Assembly: GCF_016758255.1 (NCBI RefSeq)
Contig: NZ_QYAD01000001.1
Location: 1,054,001-1,118,000, forward strand
Length of the DNA: 64,000 nucleotides
Direction of reading: 5' to 3'
Source of the DNA: Leucobacter chromiireducens subsp. chromiireducens
Lineage (GTDB): Bacteria > Actinomycetota > Actinomycetes > Actinomycetales > Microbacteriaceae
The notes under the pieces are model-generated. The model made no database searches. It saw nothing but the letters and a program-made list of their open reading frames with translations, and was not told the origin of the DNA. Both the position numbers and the translations under genes were made by a program. Of this stretch, positions 48,671-62,430 are shown piece after piece; the first letter of the stretch is position 1; every line of letters starts with the position of its first letter.

Positions 48671-49618
48671 TTACCTCGGGCCGCTCTGCGCGGCGGCAGC
48701 AGACTCACGCAGCACCGGCGCGACCACCGCGGCAAGCTCGGTCGGTGCGGCCTCGTGCAGATTGTGCGGACCGGACACCGTCGTGACACGAGCATCGGGC
48801 AGCTGTTCCTGCCATTCGGCCTCGAGCGCGGGGGAAATCAGGCCGTGCGACGCGCGAACGAGCAGGATCGGAACGTTCACGGTCTGCAGCGACGCCCAGA
48901 TCGGTGCGTACGGCTGGGGGTCTTCGAGCGCGGGGTCCCCGGGCATCAGCTCCGGCAGGTGCGCGAGGTGGTGCGTCCACTCGAGCCGGCCGTCAGCGCG
49001 CGTCCGGGTGTTCAGGGTCACCCCGCGCGTCAGTGCGGTGCGATCGGAGCCAATGCCGAACGCGATGGCGCGGTCGACGATCTCCTCAACGCTCCCGAAG
49101 TCGCGCTGCCCGCGAATAAACTCGGTGATGCTGCCCGCGTCGCGCTGCGGTGAGACTTCCGGGGTGATGTCCACGATGACGAGGGCGCGCACGAGCTCAG
49201 GCCGGGCCGCGGCAACCAGCGCGGCGGTGAGCCCGCCCAGCGAGTGGCCGAGCAGCACGACCGGCGCGGGGGCGAGCTGTTCGAGTGCCGCCTCGACGTC
49301 GCCGGCGAGGTGATCTGGGCGGTAGTCGCCGTCCGCGCGCCAATCGCTGCGCCCGTGGCCGGGCAGGTCCAGGGCGAGCGCGGGCACGCCGAGCGCGAGG
49401 AACAAGGGGTCAAAACTGTGCGCGTTGAGCCCGGCGCCGTGCAACGCCACGAGCTCGGGGGGAGATGGGGCATCGAACGACAGCGCGCTCAGTGTGCGCT
49501 CCTCGCTCACGCGTGCGGACACCCGAGCGACGGTAGGCAGCGCCGACGTGCGGCCCACGCGTGCTGCGTCGCCCGGGAGGAAGCGGAACTCGGGATCCTG
49601 AGCTGCGGTGGTCGTCAT
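48671..49618 (-). CDS. Alpha/beta hydrolase
   Basis: This 315-residue alpha/beta-hydrolase has the oxyanion segment VALHGAGLNAHSFDPL, the nucleophile elbow VLLGHSLGGLTAALV with the catalytic serine, an acidic residue in the DITPEV region and the histidine in SGPHNLHEAAP. There is no signal peptide, so it is cytosolic. The substrate cannot be predicted; esterase, lactonase and C-C hydrolase activities all fit. The ATG at 49618 is leaderless, 6 nt after TAGACT; the GTG two codons earlier would overlap that spacer. It stands alone. Confidence 0.86.
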   Translation of the reverse strand: MTTTAAQDPEFRFLPGDAARVGRTSALPTVARVSARVSEERTLSALSFDAPSPPELVALHGAGLNAHSFDPLFLALGVPALALDLPGHGRSDWRADGDYRPDHLAGDVEAALEQLAPAPVVLLGHSLGGLTAALVAAARPELVRALVIVDITPEVSPQRDAGSITEFIRGQRDFGSVEEIVDRAIAFGIGSDRTALTRGVTLNTRTRADGRLEWTHHLAHLPELMPGDPALEDPQPYAPIWASLQTVNVPILLVRASHGLISPALEAEWQEQLPDARVTTVSGPHNLHEAAPTELAAVVAPVLRESAAAAQSGPR

Positions 49619-49624
49619 GGGCAC

Positions 49625-55336: not shown

Positions 55337-56185
55337 GTGAATGAACGCTGGGATCCGGCCGGCCCCGACCAGGTCTACGAGGGCGACAACCTGCCGATCC
55401 TGCGCAGCCTGCCGGGGAGCGCGTTCGCGGCGGTGTACCTCGATCCGCCCTTCAATACGGGACGCTCCCGTCAGGCCGAGCGCGTCCGCGGCGTGCGCGC
55501 GGAGGGCGGTCGGCTCGGGTTCCGCGGGCAGGGGTACGACGTGACCCGCGAGATGACCCTCGCGTACGACGACCGATTCGTTGACTACTGGGAGTTTCTC
55601 GAACCGCGCCTCGAGGAGGCCTGGCGGGTGCTCTCCCCGGACGGCCTGCTCTACCTGCACCTCGACTACCGTGAGGTGCACTACGCGAAGGTGCTGCTCG
55701 ACGCGATGTTCGGGCCCGAGTGCTTCATCAACGAGATCATCTGGGCGTACGACTATGGCGCGCGCACCAAGCGGCGCTGGCCCGCGAAGCACGACAACAT
55801 CCTCGTGTACGCAAAGCTGCCCGATTTCTACTACTTCGATGCGGAAGCGGTGGATCGCGAACCATACATGGCGCCCGGGCTGGTAACGCCGGAACAGGCC
55901 GCACGCGGCAAGCTTCCCACCGACACCTGGTGGCACACGATTGTCTCGCCGACGGGCAGTGAGCGCACGGGGTACCCGACGCAGAAACCGGTCGGCATCC
56001 TCCGCCGAATCATCCAGGCCTCGACTCGGCCGGGCGATTGGGTGCTCGACGCGTTTGCGGGGAGTGGAACCACGGGAGCGGCGGCGGCGGAGCTGGGGCG
56101 CCGCTTCGTGCTCATTGATGACAATCCCGAGGCGACCGAAGTTATGCGGCGCCGCTTCGCGGACCGGGAGGTGCGGTTCTCGTGA
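55337..56185 (+). CDS. Orphan site-specific DNA methyltransferase (N4-cytosine or N6-adenine, beta class)
   Basis: This 282-residue amino-methyltransferase has catalytic motif IV, DPPF, at residues 36-39 in AAVYLDPPFNTG, preceding the SAM-binding motif I, FAGSGTTGAAAAELG, near residue 235. This order defines the beta class. A target-recognition region lies between (about 100-200). TQKPVGILRRIIQASTRPGDWVLD is the motif X-like C-terminal block. No restriction endonuclease lies beside it, so it is an orphan modifying enzyme. The GTG at 55337 is leaderless. The stop overlaps the regulator start by four bases (GTGA). The recognition sequence cannot be predicted. Confidence 0.9.
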   Translation: MNERWDPAGPDQVYEGDNLPILRSLPGSAFAAVYLDPPFNTGRSRQAERVRGVRAEGGRLGFRGQGYDVTREMTLAYDDRFVDYWEFLEPRLEEAWRVLSPDGLLYLHLDYREVHYAKVLLDAMFGPECFINEIIWAYDYGARTKRRWPAKHDNILVYAKLPDFYYFDAEAVDREPYMAPGLVTPEQAARGKLPTDTWWHTIVSPTGSERTGYPTQKPVGILRRIIQASTRPGDWVLDAFAGSGTTGAAAAELGRRFVLIDDNPEATEVMRRRFADREVRFS

Positions 56186-57666
56186 GTGGCGCGGGCGGTG
56201 CGAGCGGTACCTTCCCGGTGCACCTGGATCGGGGTGCGGAGGCGCCGCTGCCGGTGCAGCTTGCGGCGGCGCTGCGCGAGGCGATTGACGCAGCAACCCT
56301 GCGCCCGGGGGAGCACATCCCGGCAACACGAGAGCTCGCGCGGCGCTTGGGCGTCGCGCGCGGGGTGGTGGTTGCCGCCTATGAGCAGCTCATCGCCGAG
56401 GGGTACCTCGCGGCAACGCACGGGCGCGGCACGATGGTCAACCCCGCGCTCGAGCGCACGGAACCCGCGCAGCGTGCGGCACCCGCACCCCCGAGCGCGG
56501 AGCTCTCGGCAACACGCCCGCTCGCGGAGACTGCGCTGGCCGAGCCACTCGCACCCGGCCAGCCGATCACTGACGCGGTGGTTGGCCCGGCGTGGCGCAG
56601 CGCTTGGCGTGCTGCAGCCGCGCAGGTGGATGCGGCACCCCCAGCCCTCGGCGATTCTGCACTGCGCATCGAGATTGCCGATCACCTGCGGCGCATGCGT
56701 GGCACCGCGCGCCATGCAGGCGATGTGCTCGTCACTGCGGGCACCCGCGATGGGCTGGGCCTCTTGCTCACCGCGCTCGGCGGCACGCGGGGCCGTGAGC
56801 TCGTGGTTGGGGTGGAGGATCCCGGTCTGCCATCGCTCCGGGGCGCCGCGCAGCGGTATGGCGCGCGCATCGTCGCGCTTCCCGCGGATGGTGAGGGCCT
56901 CGACACCAGCCGGCTCCCCGACGGCATGCTCGATCTCGTGATCGTTACTCCCAGCCACCAGTACCCGCTCGGCGGCTCGCTGCCCCTGCCGCGACGACGC
57001 GCGCTGCTCGCCTGGGCGCGGCGCACGGGCGTCGTGATCGTGGAGGACGACTTCGACTCCGAGCTGCGCTACACAGGCAGTCCGCTCCCGACGCTCGCAG
57101 CGCTCGACGATCCCGAGCGCGGGTCTGTCGTGCTGCTCGGGACTTTCTCGCGCACGCTCGCCCCGGGCTTGTCTGCGGGCTACTTGCTCGCACCCGCGGG
57201 GCTGCGCGCGCTCATCGAACCGGTGCGACGTGAGCTCGGCGGTCCGGTCTCGGGGGTCGTGCAGGCGGCGCTCGCCACCTACCTCGCGAGTGGCGAGCTG
57301 CGGCGGCACACCGCGCGGATGCTGCGGCGGTATGCCGCCCGGCGCGATGCTGTCTCAGAGGTGCTCGCGGGCGCGACGGGCGTGCGCGTGCGTCCCATGG
57401 ATGGTGGGCTTCACGCGGTGCTCGAGTTCTTGCCGCGGGTGGGCTCATCGAGTGGAGATCGGGATCCGGGTGCGCCGACGCGCGAGGAAGCCGTGCTCGC
57501 TGCGGCGCGTGCCGACGGACTCGGCGTGCAGGGCCTGGCGGGCTACTGGCAGCGGGGGGAGCGTGCACCGGGCATGACCGGGCTGGTCGTCGGAATGGGC
57601 GGCGCTGATGACGCCGAGTTCGCCCGTGCGCTCGCGCGACTCCGAGCCATCCTCGACGCCAACTAG
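56182..57666 (+). CDS. MocR/PdxR-type GntR regulator with aminotransferase domain lacking the PLP lysine
   Basis: This 494-residue fusion has an N-terminal GntR winged helix (about 15-88: LPVQLAAALREAIDAATLRPGEHIPATRELARRLGVARGVVVAAYEQL, in three overlapping parts) and a class I aminotransferase-like domain (about 130-490) with EDDFDSELRY. The conserved GTFSKTLAPGL block, whose lysine forms the PLP aldimine, reads GTFSRTLAPGL here; R324 replaces the lysine. The protein therefore cannot form the normal Schiff base and may sense another ligand. The GTG at 56182 overlaps the DNA methyltransferase stop (GTGA), so the two are translationally coupled. Targets are unknown. Confidence 0.88.
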   Translation: MSGAGGASGTFPVHLDRGAEAPLPVQLAAALREAIDAATLRPGEHIPATRELARRLGVARGVVVAAYEQLIAEGYLAATHGRGTMVNPALERTEPAQRAAPAPPSAELSATRPLAETALAEPLAPGQPITDAVVGPAWRSAWRAAAAQVDAAPPALGDSALRIEIADHLRRMRGTARHAGDVLVTAGTRDGLGLLLTALGGTRGRELVVGVEDPGLPSLRGAAQRYGARIVALPADGEGLDTSRLPDGMLDLVIVTPSHQYPLGGSLPLPRRRALLAWARRTGVVIVEDDFDSELRYTGSPLPTLAALDDPERGSVVLLGTFSRTLAPGLSAGYLLAPAGLRALIEPVRRELGGPVSGVVQAALATYLASGELRRHTARMLRRYAARRDAVSEVLAGATGVRVRPMDGGLHAVLEFLPRVGSSSGDRDPGAPTREEAVLAAARADGLGVQGLAGYWQRGERAPGMTGLVVGMGGADDAEFARALARLRAILDAN

Positions 57667-57740: not shown

Positions 57741-57760
57741 TTGCCGAAGCGTTTCGGCAA
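57741..57760. promoter_or_regulatory. LacI-type operator, box 1 (ureohydrolase promoter)
   Basis: TTGCCGAAGCGTTTCGGCAA is a 20-bp near-perfect palindrome about 82 bp before the ureohydrolase ATG. Its core AANCGTTT matches LacI-family operators and the other boxes of this cluster. A weaker palindrome, AAGCGCTT, follows at 57764-57771. Confidence 0.65.
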
Positions 57761-57783
57761 TGAAAGCGCTTGTTTGGTTTTAA

Positions 57784-57803
57784 GAATCCAAACGTTTCAG
57801 CAT
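57784..57803. promoter_or_regulatory. LacI-type operator, box 2 (ureohydrolase promoter)
   Basis: GAATCCAAACGTTTCAGCAT holds the palindrome AAACGTTT and the right half TTTCAGCA seen in the box upstream of the polyprenyl synthase. Its centre is 43 bp from box 1, about four helical turns, which would allow DNA looping or cooperative binding. Confidence 0.55.
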
Positions 57804-57842
57804 TAACGTCGCAGTGGTGCGGCGAACGTGAAATGAGGAATC

Positions 57843-58832
57843 ATGACTGAGAACTCTGCCGGCTCGTTCGACGAGACGATGTGGAATGGACTCCTGCACG
57901 GTGGGATCGGCGGAACATTCATGGGTGTTCCGCGAGTGGAGCTGAATCGTGAGGCCATCGTGGCGTCAGGCGCAAAGGCGGTGGTGTACGGGTTCCCCTT
58001 CGACGGCACGACAATCAGTCGAAGCGGTGCAAACTACGGCCCACGTGCCATTCGGGAGACTTCGGTTCAGTACACGAACTTTCAAGCGACGTTTGACTTT
58101 GACCTATTTGCGCATCTTCCACTCGCAGATGGTGGGGATTGCAACGTGGCGCTGGGCAATACGCCGAAGACGTTCGAGCGTGTCGAGGCTGACATTGCTG
58201 AGATTGTTGCCGCGGGGGCGATTCCCGTTGTCTTCGGTGGAGATCATTCGGTGAGCATTCCGGTCGGCAAGGCGGCGAAGAAGCCAGGGACAAGCCCGGG
58301 CTGGGTGCAGTTCGATACTCACCTTGACGCGGCGCCGAACGTGGGCGGGGAGGAGCTGAACCACTGCTGCACGATCACGCGTGCGGTCGACAACGGCTAT
58401 GACCCGGCGAAGATTGTGCTTGTGGGAATCAGCGGCTGGATGAACCCGAAGACGGAACTGAAATACTGCCGAGATCACGGTATCCGAGTCATTTGGCTTG
58501 AGGACATCTGGGAGAAGGGCACTCTGTGGGCCGTCGAGCAGATTCTTGAGCGAGTTGGAGAAGAGGGGTTCTACCTGACCTTCGACGTTGATGCGCTCGA
58601 TGCCGCGTTTGCGCCGGGTACCTGTGCGCCGACGCCGGGCGGAATGACGATCCGAGAAGCGCTTGAGATTGTCCGCGGGATCGCACCCGCTGGACTCATC
58701 GGAGTGGACATTGCGGAACCGGCGCCGTCTCTTGATCACTCCACTCGTACGCAGCTCATTGCGGGGCGCCTCGCACTTGAGGCTCTCGCATTCCATGCGG
58801 GCTGCCCGAGTACGCCGGTGTATGTCGGCTAG
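57843..58832 (+). CDS. Ureohydrolase of the agmatinase/guanidinobutyrase family
   Basis: This 329-residue metal-dependent hydrolase releases urea from a guanidino compound. Metal-ligand blocks are GGDHS (132-136), FDTHLD (157-162, where DAHxD is more usual) and FDVDALD (247-253, followed by A where DP is usual). The N-terminus GGTFMGVPRVE and VVYGFPFDGTTISRSGANYGPRAIRE fit agmatinase-type proteins. The substrate could be agmatine, 4-guanidinobutyrate, guanidinopropionate or guanidine; the altered DTHLD and DALDAA blocks make plain agmatine less certain. The ATG at 57843 follows GAGGAATC. LacI-type boxes lie upstream, and a T-run terminator follows. It faces a nitrilase-superfamily gene and an APC permease gene. 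Confidence 0.82.
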   Translation: MTENSAGSFDETMWNGLLHGGIGGTFMGVPRVELNREAIVASGAKAVVYGFPFDGTTISRSGANYGPRAIRETSVQYTNFQATFDFDLFAHLPLADGGDCNVALGNTPKTFERVEADIAEIVAAGAIPVVFGGDHSVSIPVGKAAKKPGTSPGWVQFDTHLDAAPNVGGEELNHCCTITRAVDNGYDPAKIVLVGISGWMNPKTELKYCRDHGIRVIWLEDIWEKGTLWAVEQILERVGEEGFYLTFDVDALDAAFAPGTCAPTPGGMTIREALEIVRGIAPAGLIGVDIAEPAPSLDHSTRTQLIAGRLALEALAFHAGCPSTPVYVG

Positions 58833-58845
58833 GTGCTGAAGTGGT

Positions 58846-58885
58846 CGTGGGGCCGGGCGGAAGCGCCTTGCCCCACGGCTTTTTT
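58846..58885. terminator. Intrinsic terminator with T-run after the ureohydrolase gene
   Basis: An 8-bp stem CGTGGGGC / GCCCCACG encloses a smaller GGCG / CGCC stem and is followed two bases later by six Ts. It is the only hairpin I saw in the window with a proper T-run on the plus strand, and it lies between two convergent genes. Confidence 0.75.
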
Positions 58886-58896
58886 GTGGCGCCTCG

Positions 58897-59670
58897 CTAG
58901 CTGTAGAGCGAGGGGCGTCGCTGTGTCAGCATGTCGGCGAACGCATCCGCCGGTGCAGCAATCGTGAAATCGACAACGAGGCTTCCTGGTGTGTGCGCAT
59001 CGAGTGCGCCGAGCATTTCGCCTGTTGGCGATACGGCGCAACTCATGCCGCAGAATGAGTGGCCAGATTCGGTACCGACTCGGTTGGCATAGGCGAGCGG
59101 AAGTCGGTTTTCGAGTGCGCGCGCCTGCGCGGCGATGCGGTGATCCCGTTCATGCGGACGCATGTTTGCGGATCCGGCGATCAGGAGCTCTGCCCCGTGT
59201 AGGGCAAGTGTTCGAGCGACCTCTGGAAATTCGAGCTCGAAGCAATTGATCACCCCGATCTGCGTGCCGCACAGGGTGATCGTATCGATGCGTTCACCTG
59301 CGCGGAAGGCGTCGCGCTCTGTGCCGAACAGGTGCGTCTTGTGAATCGCTTCGAGTGTGCGGCCATCAGTGTCGATGGCGAGGTAAGCGTCAGAGTAGCC
59401 GGTGGCGAGCGGTGAGATGAAGCCAACAAGAAGCCCGGTCTGGGTCTCCCGACAGGCTTCCCGAAGGGGGTCGAGGCGCGCGTCGTGCTCAGTCATGGCG
59501 AGTTCGTCAAGCTGCCCGGTCTGGTAGCCCGTGAGATAGAGCTCGGGGAACGCGATGAGATCGGCGGAAGACCTCACGATTGTTGTGCGCACGTGCTCGA
59601 TATTGGTTGCCAGGTCGCGCGGGGCGGGGGTCTCCTGCCGGATTTCGACGCGGAGTTGAGTCGGAGACAT
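58897..59670 (-). CDS. Carbon-nitrogen hydrolase (nitrilase superfamily amidase)
   Basis: This 257-residue amidase has the nitrilase-superfamily triad: E43 in IAFPELYLTGY, K111 in IHKTHLFGTE and C143 in GVINCFELEFPE. It resembles the aliphatic amidase/N-carbamoylputrescine amidase/omega-amidase branch more than true nitrilases. Plausible substrates in this context are 4-guanidinobutyramide, N-carbamoylputrescine or an omega-amide of an amino acid. It starts with ATG at 59670 after AAAGGGCCCCC. It is divergent from the permease gene across a region with two LacI-type boxes and convergent with the ureohydrolase gene, so all three may be controlled together. Confidence 0.85.
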   Translation of the reverse strand: MSPTQLRVEIRQETPAPRDLATNIEHVRTTIVRSSADLIAFPELYLTGYQTGQLDELAMTEHDARLDPLREACRETQTGLLVGFISPLATGYSDAYLAIDTDGRTLEAIHKTHLFGTERDAFRAGERIDTITLCGTQIGVINCFELEFPEVARTLALHGAELLIAGSANMRPHERDHRIAAQARALENRLPLAYANRVGTESGHSFCGMSCAVSPTGEMLGALDAHTPGSLVVDFTIAAPADAFADMLTQRRPSLYS

Positions 59671-59700
59671 GGGGGCCCTTTCTATGAGAGCTGATGAAGG

Positions 59701-59720
59701 TTGCTAAATCGTTTCAACCA
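59701..59720. promoter_or_regulatory. LacI-type operator, box A (nitrilase/permease divergent region)
   Basis: TTGCTAAATCGTTTCAACCA is an imperfect palindrome whose core matches box 1 upstream of the ureohydrolase gene. It lies about 30 bp before the amidase ATG. Confidence 0.6.
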
Positions 59721-59755
59721 TAATACTAGGCTGAATTCGTTATAAAAACAGAGTA

Positions 59756-59775
59756 TTGCTAAAACGTTTCGGCCA
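59756..59775. promoter_or_regulatory. LacI-type operator, box B (permease promoter)
   Basis: TTGCTAAAACGTTTCGGCCA is the best match to box 1 and lies 118 bp before the permease ATG. The centres of boxes A and B are 55 bp apart. Confidence 0.65.
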
Positions 59776-59893
59776 AGGTAGCGTGTTCGCAGAACCAAAG
59801 GCTCGCGACGTAGCGAGAGTTCTCGGAGGTTCTGGACGGGCGCGTTGAGTTCCGAGGCCACCCCGTCGTTGTTCACGAAGCAAAGGAGTTTCC

Positions 59894-61417
59894 ATGACCG
59901 CGACGTCTCCGGTGATGAAGCGTGAGTTCACAATGTTCTCCGCCCTATCGGTCGCTTTCGCTTTTGTTTCGCCCATCGTCGCGCTCTACAGCGTGCTGGG
60001 CGTTGGCCTGACAACTTCCGGCCCGGCCTTTATCTGGGGTGGCCTCATTCTCTACGCTGGTCAGTTCATCGTTGTACTCACGCTCGGGGTGCTCGCGTCG
60101 AAATGGGCTGACTCTGGTGGAATTTATCAGTGGTCTCGTCGTCTCCTGGGGCATCGTTACGGCTGGTTTGCCTCATGGACCTATATCTGGACCCTGTTGA
60201 TTACTCTCCCGGCTGTCGCATACGCGGGGGCTGTGCTGATTCCGCCAATCTTCGACATCCCCGCAGCAGATCACGGCCTGGTGACCTGGCTCGCGATCGG
60301 GGTTCTCGCGTTCAGCACGCTCGTGAATCTTGCGGGCAGAGTGTTCATCAAGATCTTGATGGTGGGGGTGATCGTAGCCGAGGCCGTTGGGTCGATCGGT
60401 GTTGCGGTGTGGCTGCTCTTCTTTGAGCGGCACCAGGGGCTCGAGTATCTGTCGCCAGCGAGCCTCGGTGACTACAGTGGCGCGTTCTTTTCCGCGCCGC
60501 TCGTCATGGCGATTGCGTTCTCGAGCTATTTTGCAATCGGGTTTGAGAGCGCGAGCTCCATCGCTGAGGAGGTGAAGCGTCCGAAGCGGGCAGTGCCTCG
60601 AGCGATGGTCGTTTCGTTCTTTGCGATCATGATCATCGTTCTACTGAGTACGCTTGCGTTCACGCTCGCGGTACCGAGCGACGCGTTCCTCCAGGACCCA
60701 GAGAACGCTGCTGACCCGGCCGTCGCGATCATCGCTGCCACCTTCCCTGAGCCAGTATTCCGAGGTATCTTGGCGCTCTTCGTGATCGCGTTCGCTGCGA
60801 GTCTCATGACGATCCAGATCACAGTCTCTCGAATCGTGTGGGCAACTGCGCGAAATGGGGAGTTGCCATTCGCTCGGTTCCTGACAAAGCTTTCAGGTGA
60901 GACTGGCCTGCCGAGGCGCGCTGTGCTCATCACTGCTGCGATTGCGGTGCTGCTCTTCTTGCCGTTCCAAAGCGAGGGAATTCAGATGGCACTGATCTCG
61001 TTCTCGTCGGTTGGGTTCTTCATTTCCTTCTTGTTCCCCGTGCTGGGGCTCGCAGTTGCTCGAATGCGCGGGACCTGGCGCGAAGATCCTTCGCTGTTCC
61101 TGGGGCGCGCAGGGAAAGCGGTGAGCGCGCTCGCGCTCGTCTGGCTCGTGTTCCAGGTGGTCAACGTCGCTTGGCCCCGTCCATCGGGTGCGGGATGGGT
61201 GACGGACTGGTCCACTGTGATTGGTGTCGCCGCAGTGGGGGTGCTCGGAGTCTTCGTTGAGGCTTGGGTCCATCGGAAGCGACTCCACGCAGCCTCGACT
61301 GGATCGACCATTGTGGTGTTCGAGCGCGATGAGTCCGCGGATGACGAGGATGAGCAGGAACCTGACCGGCTGCTGGGGACGAGCACACCGCAGTCTCGTG
61401 TTGCTGGGCCTCGCTAG
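59894..61417 (+). CDS. APC family amino acid / polyamine permease
   Basis: This 507-residue amino-acid/polyamine/organocation transporter has about twelve membrane helices. FSALSVAFAFVSPIVALYSVLGVGL is helix 1 with the unwound glycine region, and GGIYQWSRRLLGHRYGW is the conserved APC loop. FESASSIAEEVKRPKRAVPRA is the helix 6-7 motif typical of GABA permease/AAT-type members. The C-terminal 60 residues are charged and disordered (DESADDEDEQE). The ATG at 59894 follows AAAGGAG. The neighbouring ureohydrolase and amidase suggest that it imports a guanidino, amide or amino compound. Its last four bases overlap the convergent lacI-type gene. Confidence 0.88.
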   Translation: MTATSPVMKREFTMFSALSVAFAFVSPIVALYSVLGVGLTTSGPAFIWGGLILYAGQFIVVLTLGVLASKWADSGGIYQWSRRLLGHRYGWFASWTYIWTLLITLPAVAYAGAVLIPPIFDIPAADHGLVTWLAIGVLAFSTLVNLAGRVFIKILMVGVIVAEAVGSIGVAVWLLFFERHQGLEYLSPASLGDYSGAFFSAPLVMAIAFSSYFAIGFESASSIAEEVKRPKRAVPRAMVVSFFAIMIIVLLSTLAFTLAVPSDAFLQDPENAADPAVAIIAATFPEPVFRGILALFVIAFAASLMTIQITVSRIVWATARNGELPFARFLTKLSGETGLPRRAVLITAAIAVLLFLPFQSEGIQMALISFSSVGFFISFLFPVLGLAVARMRGTWREDPSLFLGRAGKAVSALALVWLVFQVVNVAWPRPSGAGWVTDWSTVIGVAAVGVLGVFVEAWVHRKRLHAASTGSTIVVFERDESADDEDEQEPDRLLGTSTPQSRVAGPR

Positions 61418-62430
61418 GAAGCGAGAGAAGAATCGCGAACAGTGAGCGTCGCCGGGACAAGTTCTCGGCGGCGTTCGCTTTTCCCCTCGATTGATTCAAG
61501 GAGGAGATCAACCGCGATTTCACCCAGGCGAACTGGAGCAAGGTCGAGCGCAGTGATCGGCATCTGGAGCCCGTAGTCGAGGTACCGGCTGTCTGAGAGG
61601 CTGAGAATCTGCAGTTCCTGCGGAATCGAAAGCCCAAGCATGTGCGCGCTGCGCTCTGTCGCGTGTGCAAGGGTGTCGAGCGTTGTCAACACCGCATCAA
61701 ACTTGCGGTCTCCTGCTGCGAGCGCCTTCTGGATGACAGGTTCGGCCTCATCGACACGAGGGCCGGGAGACCGGATGATGACGGGCTCCACTCCAACTGT
61801 GCTGCACCAATCAAGGTAGGCCGAGAGTTCATCGCGAACGTAGGAGGAACTTGTTTCACTCAGGAAGAGTGCTGGCCGAGCATCGCGCAGCTCGCTCAGG
61901 TGCGCGAGGGCTGAGGTGGTCCCCGTCGCGAAATCATTGTCCACCCAGCTCAGGTCGTCCCCGTTCCGACCGATCGTCACACATGGGAGCCCCGCCTGAA
62001 GAGCGGCACCAATGATGGGATCATCCTGGCTGGGGTCGACCACAATAAGCCCGTCCGTGGCGGCGAGGAGGCCACGGGACGGCTCGCCCGAGGGCATCAT
62101 CGAGAGGAGGAACCCTCGCTGAAACGCCTGTGCGCTCGCGCCGCTCAAGACTCGAAAGTAGTATTCAACATCCCACTCGGGCTGCATGCCGGGGGCTGCT
62201 GAGTGTGCGGCCATCGGGGAGACCGTGAGCGCGAGTGATCCGGTTCGCCCTGCATTGAGGTTCTTTGCGAGGCGATTCGCAGAGTACCCGAGTCGATCCG
62301 CCGTATCGACCACGTTCTGGCGGGTGGCAGCTGCAACCCGACCCTTCCCGTTGAGCGCTTCAGATGCGGTTGCAACTGAGACGCCCGCCTCGAGAGCGAC
62401 GTCTTTGATGGTGATCCGGCGAGATTTCAT
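61414..62430 (-). CDS. LacI family transcription regulator
   Basis: This 338-residue LacI-type repressor has the helix-turn-helix and hinge at residues 5-62 (TIKDVALEAGVSVATASEALNGKGRVAAATRQNVVDTADRLGYSANRLAK, in two parts around GRVAAA). The sugar-binding-fold effector domain includes GLPCVTIGRNGDDLSWVDNDFATG and the final LAPVRLGEIAVDLLLESI region. The effector need not be a sugar. The ATG at 62430 overlaps the polyprenyl synthase stop (ATGA). Its own operator is probably the box at 63480-63499, with further boxes at 57.7 and 59.7 kb. The 3' end overlaps the permease gene by four bases. Confidence 0.9.
   Translation of the reverse strand: MKSRRITIKDVALEAGVSVATASEALNGKGRVAAATRQNVVDTADRLGYSANRLAKNLNAGRTGSLALTVSPMAAHSAAPGMQPEWDVEYYFRVLSGASAQAFQRGFLLSMMPSGEPSRGLLAATDGLIVVDPSQDDPIIGAALQAGLPCVTIGRNGDDLSWVDNDFATGTTSALAHLSELRDARPALFLSETSSSYVRDELSAYLDWCSTVGVEPVIIRSPGPRVDEAEPVIQKALAAGDRKFDAVLTTLDTLAHATERSAHMLGLSIPQELQILSLSDSRYLDYGLQMPITALDLAPVRLGEIAVDLLLESIEGKSERRRELVPATLTVRDSSLAS

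Follow-up and report, generated by a model that had tools for sequence, protein, structure and literature searches.

The window, a stretch of 64,000 nucleotides from Leucobacter chromiireducens subsp. chromiireducens, encodes a MocR-type regulator (GntR/aminotransferase) that, by its sequence, is the Leucobacter orthologue of actinobacterial PdxR. The lysine of PLP-Schiff-base MocR regulators is absent from this protein and the aspartate for the pyridine nitrogen (Asp289) is present, and the protein is best read as a B6 regulator that still works but no longer relies on the Schiff base. Our leading reading, which is tentative and falls just short of an even call, is that this lysine-less PdxR orthologue binds three-box operators of pdxST and pdxY and acts in trans, and that Arg324 fills the cofactor pocket of an aminotransferase domain fixed in an apo-like form, giving an activator that PLP would not switch off.

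The regulator gene, the domains and pocket residues of its product and the gene upstream are listed in Table 1. The regulator scores 410.8 bits against the NCBIfam PdxR equivalog NF052282 (cut-off 320), and both Pfam and the AlphaFold model give it the PdxR domain order, a GntR winged helix-turn-helix followed by an aminotransferase class I/II domain. The model, with a mean pLDDT of 86.6, matches Bacillus clausii PdxR (7pq9; Z 39.9, rmsd 2.2 over 356 residues) and GabR (6uxz; Z 39.7, rmsd 2.3 over 352 residues). The end of the methylase-like gene and the start of the regulator gene overlap by 4 bases in the window.

Table 1. Regulator gene, domains, cofactor-pocket residues and upstream gene, in window coordinates.
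Feature	Position	Strand	Basis
Regulator gene (GTG start, 494 aa)	56182..57666	+	Open reading frame; NCBIfam; tree
wHTH (GntR) DNA-binding domain, residues 26-86	56257..56439	+	Pfam PF00392, E 2.5e-13
Aminotransferase class I/II-like domain, residues 145-411	56614..57414	+	Pfam PF00155, E 5.6e-12; AlphaFold model
DNA methylase-like gene (N6_N4_Mtase), upstream of regulator	55337..56185	+	Pfam PF01555, E 6.2e-45
Arg324, codon CGC, at GabR Schiff-base Lys312	57151..57153	+	Alignment; R in 26/50 genus orthologues
Ser331, at GabR Arg319	57172..57174	+	Alignment; Arg absent in 50/50 genus orthologues, 115/116 clade rows
Leu216, at GabR ring-stacking Tyr205	56827..56829	+	Alignment; Leu in 24/24 rows of supported Arg branch
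Phe291, at GabR Tyr281	57052..57054	+	Alignment
Asp289, equal to GabR Asp279 (pyridine nitrogen partner), kept	57046..57048	+	Asp in 116/116 clade rows
Arg189, phosphate-loop segment	56746..56748	+	Arg in 116/116 clade rows, 6/21 outgroup rows

In the GabR fold, Arg319 binds the cofactor phosphate. Equivalent residues were assigned from an alignment of the window protein to two sequences, GabR (4n0b) and B. clausii PdxR (7pq9). The cofactor-site roles of GabR Asp279, Lys312, Tyr205, Tyr281 and Arg207 are described in PMC6677901. The original prediction had placed an arginine at the PLP lysine within the motif GTFSRTLAPGL, and the alignment agrees, setting R324 opposite GabR Lys312. Its proposal that the usual Schiff base is missing is supported more strongly than it was made, since the 494 residues of the window protein include no lysine at all; an internal aldimine through another side chain is thus impossible, which excludes an aldimine to a different lysine, the outcome that had been named as refuting the prediction. 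Judging from the 59 lysines in the 4338 residues of 14 other proteins (13 of the window and PdxS), 6.7 lysines would be expected in the regulator. The lysine-free state as such is not peculiar, as the family is lysine-poor (0.44 lysines per 100 residues in the lysine-bearing Leucobacter rows) and another window protein also has none, an alpha/beta hydrolase-like protein (named by eye) of 317 aa at 48671-49624 on the minus strand. Three other MocR-type paralogues in the genome of the window (L002, L003 and L004) keep the lysine.

We then consider the state of this column across the genus. Among 54 genomes a regulator match was found in 52, and four (G011, G016, G043 and G045) gave no readable state. 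The original prediction treated the protein as a single oddity and proposed an alignment of homologues; that alignment reveals instead a lineage-wide state of the PdxR orthologue, with 38 of the 50 readable genus orthologues lacking the lysine (R 26, K 12, S 9, Q 2, N 1). The nearest named relatives of the window regulator are likewise Leucobacter proteins, at 80-86% identity in the best segment. At the Arg319 column the same 50 orthologues have S (34), A (15) or G (1) and never arginine, and leucine occupies the stacking position in 25 of the 26 arginine orthologues, the exception (G010) keeping tyrosine. No lysine occurs in the available sequence of 25 of the 50 orthologues. Contig ends truncate six of the 50 (L021, L069, L070, L073, L076 and L081), so that the lysine counts of these six are minima. 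Where sequence is available, the PLP lysine is the sole lysine in 6 of the 12 lysine-bearing orthologues, three of these six being complete.

To place these states beyond the genus, a tree of 137 rows was built by a quick method with no bootstrap, and it contains long branches. Left out of it were the named Leucobacter loci L085-L099 and L106, 16 in all, which repeat unnamed ones, a fragment (L161), L002, L003, L004 and L162, and an orthologue with a frameshifted tail (L031); regions L278-L294 were left out of use. The window protein falls inside an actinobacterial PdxR clade of 116 rows (SH-aLRT 97), grouped with pdxST-linked PdxR. Lysine is present in 52 of these rows and absent in 64, counts that are not phylum frequencies since the 80 named loci were chosen as most similar to the query. 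Lysine is missing, for example, from 13 of 16 Corynebacterium rows (S or T) and, with T in its place, from Kocuria soli, K. subflava and Zimmermannella. All 24 rows of the Arg branch (support 99) combine arginine at the lysine column with leucine at the stacking column. The tree requires at least five changes between lysine and non-lysine states, and eight losses are counted by eye if lysine was never regained. The arginine of the Arg319 column, present in 21 of 21 outgroup rows, is missing from 115 of the 116 clade rows, including those with lysine, and was thus probably lost before the lysine. The Tyr281 column has tyrosine in 52 of 52 lysine-bearing rows and phenylalanine in 40 of 64 lysine-less rows; a comparison of lysine loss with loss of Tyr281 or Tyr205 had three supported independent pairs to draw on, too few for significance. 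Two orthologues of 379 aa (L043 and L044, from G103 and G172) have alanine at the lysine column, proline at the stacking position and a C-terminal part that is seemingly shortened. We consider it an evenly balanced proposition that PdxR has, time and again across the Actinobacteria, abandoned its covalent bond to PLP and kept its B6 targets, the phosphate arginine being exchanged first for one in the phosphate loop and the lysine then being lost several times. MocR regulators of this kind would form a natural class, either non-covalent readers of B6 phosphates or cofactor-free constitutive activators.

Divergence from pdxST is frequent for PdxR genes but does not define them. In 49 of the 80 named loci pdxS lies divergent from the regulator within 700 bases, and these loci comprise 26 with lysine and 23 without (12 S, 8 T, 1 N, 1 Q and 1 R). 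Five named Leucobacter loci (L086, L090, L091, L095 and L097) have the order methylase, pdxS (reverse), regulator; in the window no pdxS lies between the methylase-like gene and the regulator, and pdxS is found on another contig. The methylase-like gene lies on the same side of the regulator in 10 of the 16 named Leucobacter loci (L085-L099 and L106), some of which end nearby. Of the 54 genus genomes, 12 have pdxS linked to the regulator, 19 have it elsewhere and 23 gave no pdxS; these classes were sorted by hand from coordinates, and "elsewhere" may mean a contig break in draft genomes. G016 and G045, both with pdxS elsewhere, have no readable regulator. Among the 45 genomes with completeness of at least 90% and contamination of at most 5%, pdxS is absent from 16. 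Horizontal gain of the unlinked pdxS genes was considered and rejected, as the 30 Leucobacter rows of the PdxS tree all lie within a single half of it (SH-aLRT 97), which also contains two foreign rows on long branches.

By eye, a three-box operator is common to the regulator/pdxS intergenic regions whether the regulator is of the K, R, S, N or Q type. Scanning the genus for the pattern TGG-N9-AGRKCCA-N18-RGNCCA gave 18 exact matches, 17 of them adjoining pdxS and the other at G053:C1:1952287-1952329, away from pdxS. The sole exact match in the genome of the window, G000:C2:413113-413155, lies upstream of pdxS, at 23-65 bases from the start codon when the protein is taken to begin with MTHT. 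With at most one mismatch this genome has three matches against 14 for the reversed control, the two inexact ones being at chance level, and across the genus, at one mismatch, the reversed control usually equals or exceeds the operator in frequency; only exact or position-conserved sites therefore carry weight. With up to two mismatches the operator is found upstream of pdxS in 27 of 30 pdxS loci. No upstream operator was found at this threshold at the pdxS of G036 and G037, both Arg type, and the pdxS locus of G009, where the contig ends, was left out of the verdict. G050 has a one-mismatch site beside a partial pdxS (G050:C1:491691-492137), where the match spans only positions 3-151 of 207 and the adjacent regulator is complete. 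Beside the regulator gene in the window no operator was found, the window as a whole having 10 matches with up to three mismatches against 7.7 expected.

One-mismatch operator sites also precede pdxY, for pyridoxal kinase, in several genus genomes. The identity of pdxY is supported by the G003 protein, which scores 365 bits against NF004398 (cut-off 292), and the gene is present in 53 of the 54 genomes. In 42 of these 53 a three-box site with at most two mismatches lies about 17-59 bases before the pdxY ATG, in the same orientation as at pdxS; G053 has the weakest of these sites, owing to its poor first box. A shuffle control gave 6 in 10,600, although this control is not fully independent, since the pdxY three-box pattern was drawn after the sites had been seen. 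The site is present in 38 of 38 lysine-less genomes, that of the window among them, in 2 of 12 lysine-bearing genomes and in 2 of the 3 whose regulator could not be read, and because the 10 lysine-bearing genomes without it form one clade, this distribution represents one event and not a correlation. A readable regulator persists in 21 of the 23 genomes without pdxS; it is lysine-less in 13 of these 21, and all 13 have the pdxY site, which can explain the survival of the regulator where pdxST was lost. Seven lysine-bearing regulators come from genomes that have neither pdxS nor a pdxY site (G027, G031, G034, G035, G040, G041 and G042, with regulators L036, L073, L083, L069, L064, L081 and L082, respectively).

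In the mechanism that we favor, the regulator would bind in trans to three-box operators before pdxST, for synthesis, and before pdxY. The PLP internal aldimine cannot form, Arg324 would most likely fill the cofactor pocket, with the invariant Asp289 as its probable partner, and the aminotransferase domain would be held in a fixed apo-like state. The protein would go on binding DNA and activating in the presence of PLP. According to PMC5320631, apo-PdxR activates pdxST and PLP serves as an anti-activator, and PMC8739950 describes the Lys302His mutant of EnuR as unable to bind PLP and as a constitutive repressor. Given these precedents and the impossibility of an aldimine, the window regulator would remain DNA-binding and activating. 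The sequence state, the lysine-free chain, the orthology, the operator-like sites and the purifying selection come directly from the data. We infer the binding of the sites by the window protein, the direction of control, the pairing of arginine with aspartate and the insensitivity to PLP. An apo-like state is favored for the Arg branch because Leu216 and Arg324 appear together and are held. Against it, Asp289 and the P-loop glycine are invariant in the lysine-less rows, which suits a structural role and continued binding of a ligand equally well; Phe291 varies within the Arg branch (22 Phe and 3 Tyr in 25 Arg-type rows); and G036 and G037 pair an Arg-type regulator with a pdxS that has no operator.

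A close rival, because of the constancy of Asp289, the P-loop glycine and Arg189, is that the same regulator, with the same targets, senses a B6 phosphate (PLP, PMP or PNP) non-covalently. Asp289 would meet the pyridine nitrogen, the P-loop and Arg189 would hold the phosphate, and a salt bridge or hydrogen bond from Arg324 would replace the aldimine. We regard this as quite possible, if on the doubtful side. All three residues are present in every one of the 116 clade rows, whatever the lysine state, and Arg189 may, from the alignment, be a stand-in for Arg319: it is rare in the outgroup rows, which keep Arg319, and Arg319 is missing from lysine-bearing clade members too. The C-terminal domain is under purifying selection, and a relative, MppQ (8tn3), was solved with PMP. 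These points are countered by the loss from the window protein of the Tyr205 and Tyr281 equivalents and of the phosphate arginine, and by EnuR Lys302His, which lost PLP incorporation altogether (PMC8739950).

Re-use of the pocket for a ligand unrelated to vitamin B6 would suit the joint change of Leu216 and Arg324 on the Arg branch and their retention afterwards, but the supported sites sit at B6 genes, the one further exact match, in G053, lying away from pdxS, and we consider it unlikely. The original prediction had raised sensing of a different ligand; no positive evidence for this was obtained, and orthology and operators point to B6 genes.

It is very improbable that the gene is decaying or without function. 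Such a reading could draw on the 23 of 54 genomes in which pdxS was not found and on three damaged orthologues: that of G011 is split into two frames (G011:C1:1965775-1967228), that of G020 (L031) has its tail in another frame, as after a frameshift, and the contig-end-cut orthologue of G035 (L069) has an in-frame TAG. However, 43 of the 50 readable orthologues are whole, six of the other seven being cut by contig ends and the seventh being the G020 protein with its changed tail, and 21 of the 23 genomes without pdxS keep a readable regulator. Moreover, dN/dS is 0.058-0.110 across seven Arg-branch pairs and 0.047-0.098 for the aminotransferase domain in five such pairs, indicating purifying selection on the Arg-branch regulators; the range is 0.034-0.187 in four pairs outside the branch, and dS is 1.38, near saturation, for the pair L013/L014. 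Decay as a general reading is rejected on the dN/dS values, with G011, G020 and G035 as individual exceptions. The chance that Arg324 is a sequencing error, the other outcome named as a refutation, or that an aldimine forms through another lysine is negligible, as arginine is common to 26 genomes in four codons (CGC 20, CGA 3, CGT 2 and CGG 1) and the chain is lysine-free.

Among known systems, actinobacterial PdxR of the Corynebacterium glutamicum type resembles the window protein in domain order, NCBIfam score, tree position and the pdxS operator; the window protein differs in lacking the Schiff-base lysine, in having pdxST non-adjacent and in the additional pdxY site. Of the 16 Corynebacterium rows compared, 13 have S or T at the lysine column. 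B. clausii PdxR (7pq9, 7zla and 7zn5) has the same fold and, unlike the window protein, keeps both the lysine and the arginine (SKSLIPSVR). B. subtilis GabR (4n0b and 5t4j) also shares the fold, but its Lys312, Arg319, Tyr205 and Arg207 all differ in the window protein. EnuR Lys302His is likewise a MocR regulator without the PLP lysine, and remains a non-inducible repressor (PMC8739950); it is an artificial laboratory mutant acting on ectoine genes, unlike the natural window protein. The PLP lysine is said to be present in all MocR-like regulators (PMC2018728) and to be conserved across all three clusters (PMC6677901). No report of a lysine-less PdxR or MocR regulator was found among the titles and abstracts listed or in the consulted portions of PMC6677901, PMC5320631, PMC8739950, PMC4944035, PMC9997740, PMC6522883, PMC2018728 and PMC9484086. 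A lysine-less PdxR may already have been noticed in the C. glutamicum work (Jochmann 2011), and if C. glutamicum PdxR is also of the Ser type, a studied PdxR would need to be re-read. Within one genus, natural orthologues range over K, R, S, Q and N at the PLP site and have the same kind of operator and targets, providing ready-made proteins for testing what the covalent bond contributes to MocR signaling. The 25 of 50 orthologues that are lysine-free in the available sequence offer a clean control.

Next to the regulator, at 57843-61417 of the window, lie genes for an agmatinase, a carbon-nitrogen hydrolase and an amino acid permease, beside a LacI-type regulator (61414-62430). These look like a set for the uptake and breakdown of agmatine or a similar compound. 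The LacI-type palindrome-like sequences GAAAGCGCTTGT and AAACGTTTCA were noted by eye at 57750-57815, before the agmatinase gene.
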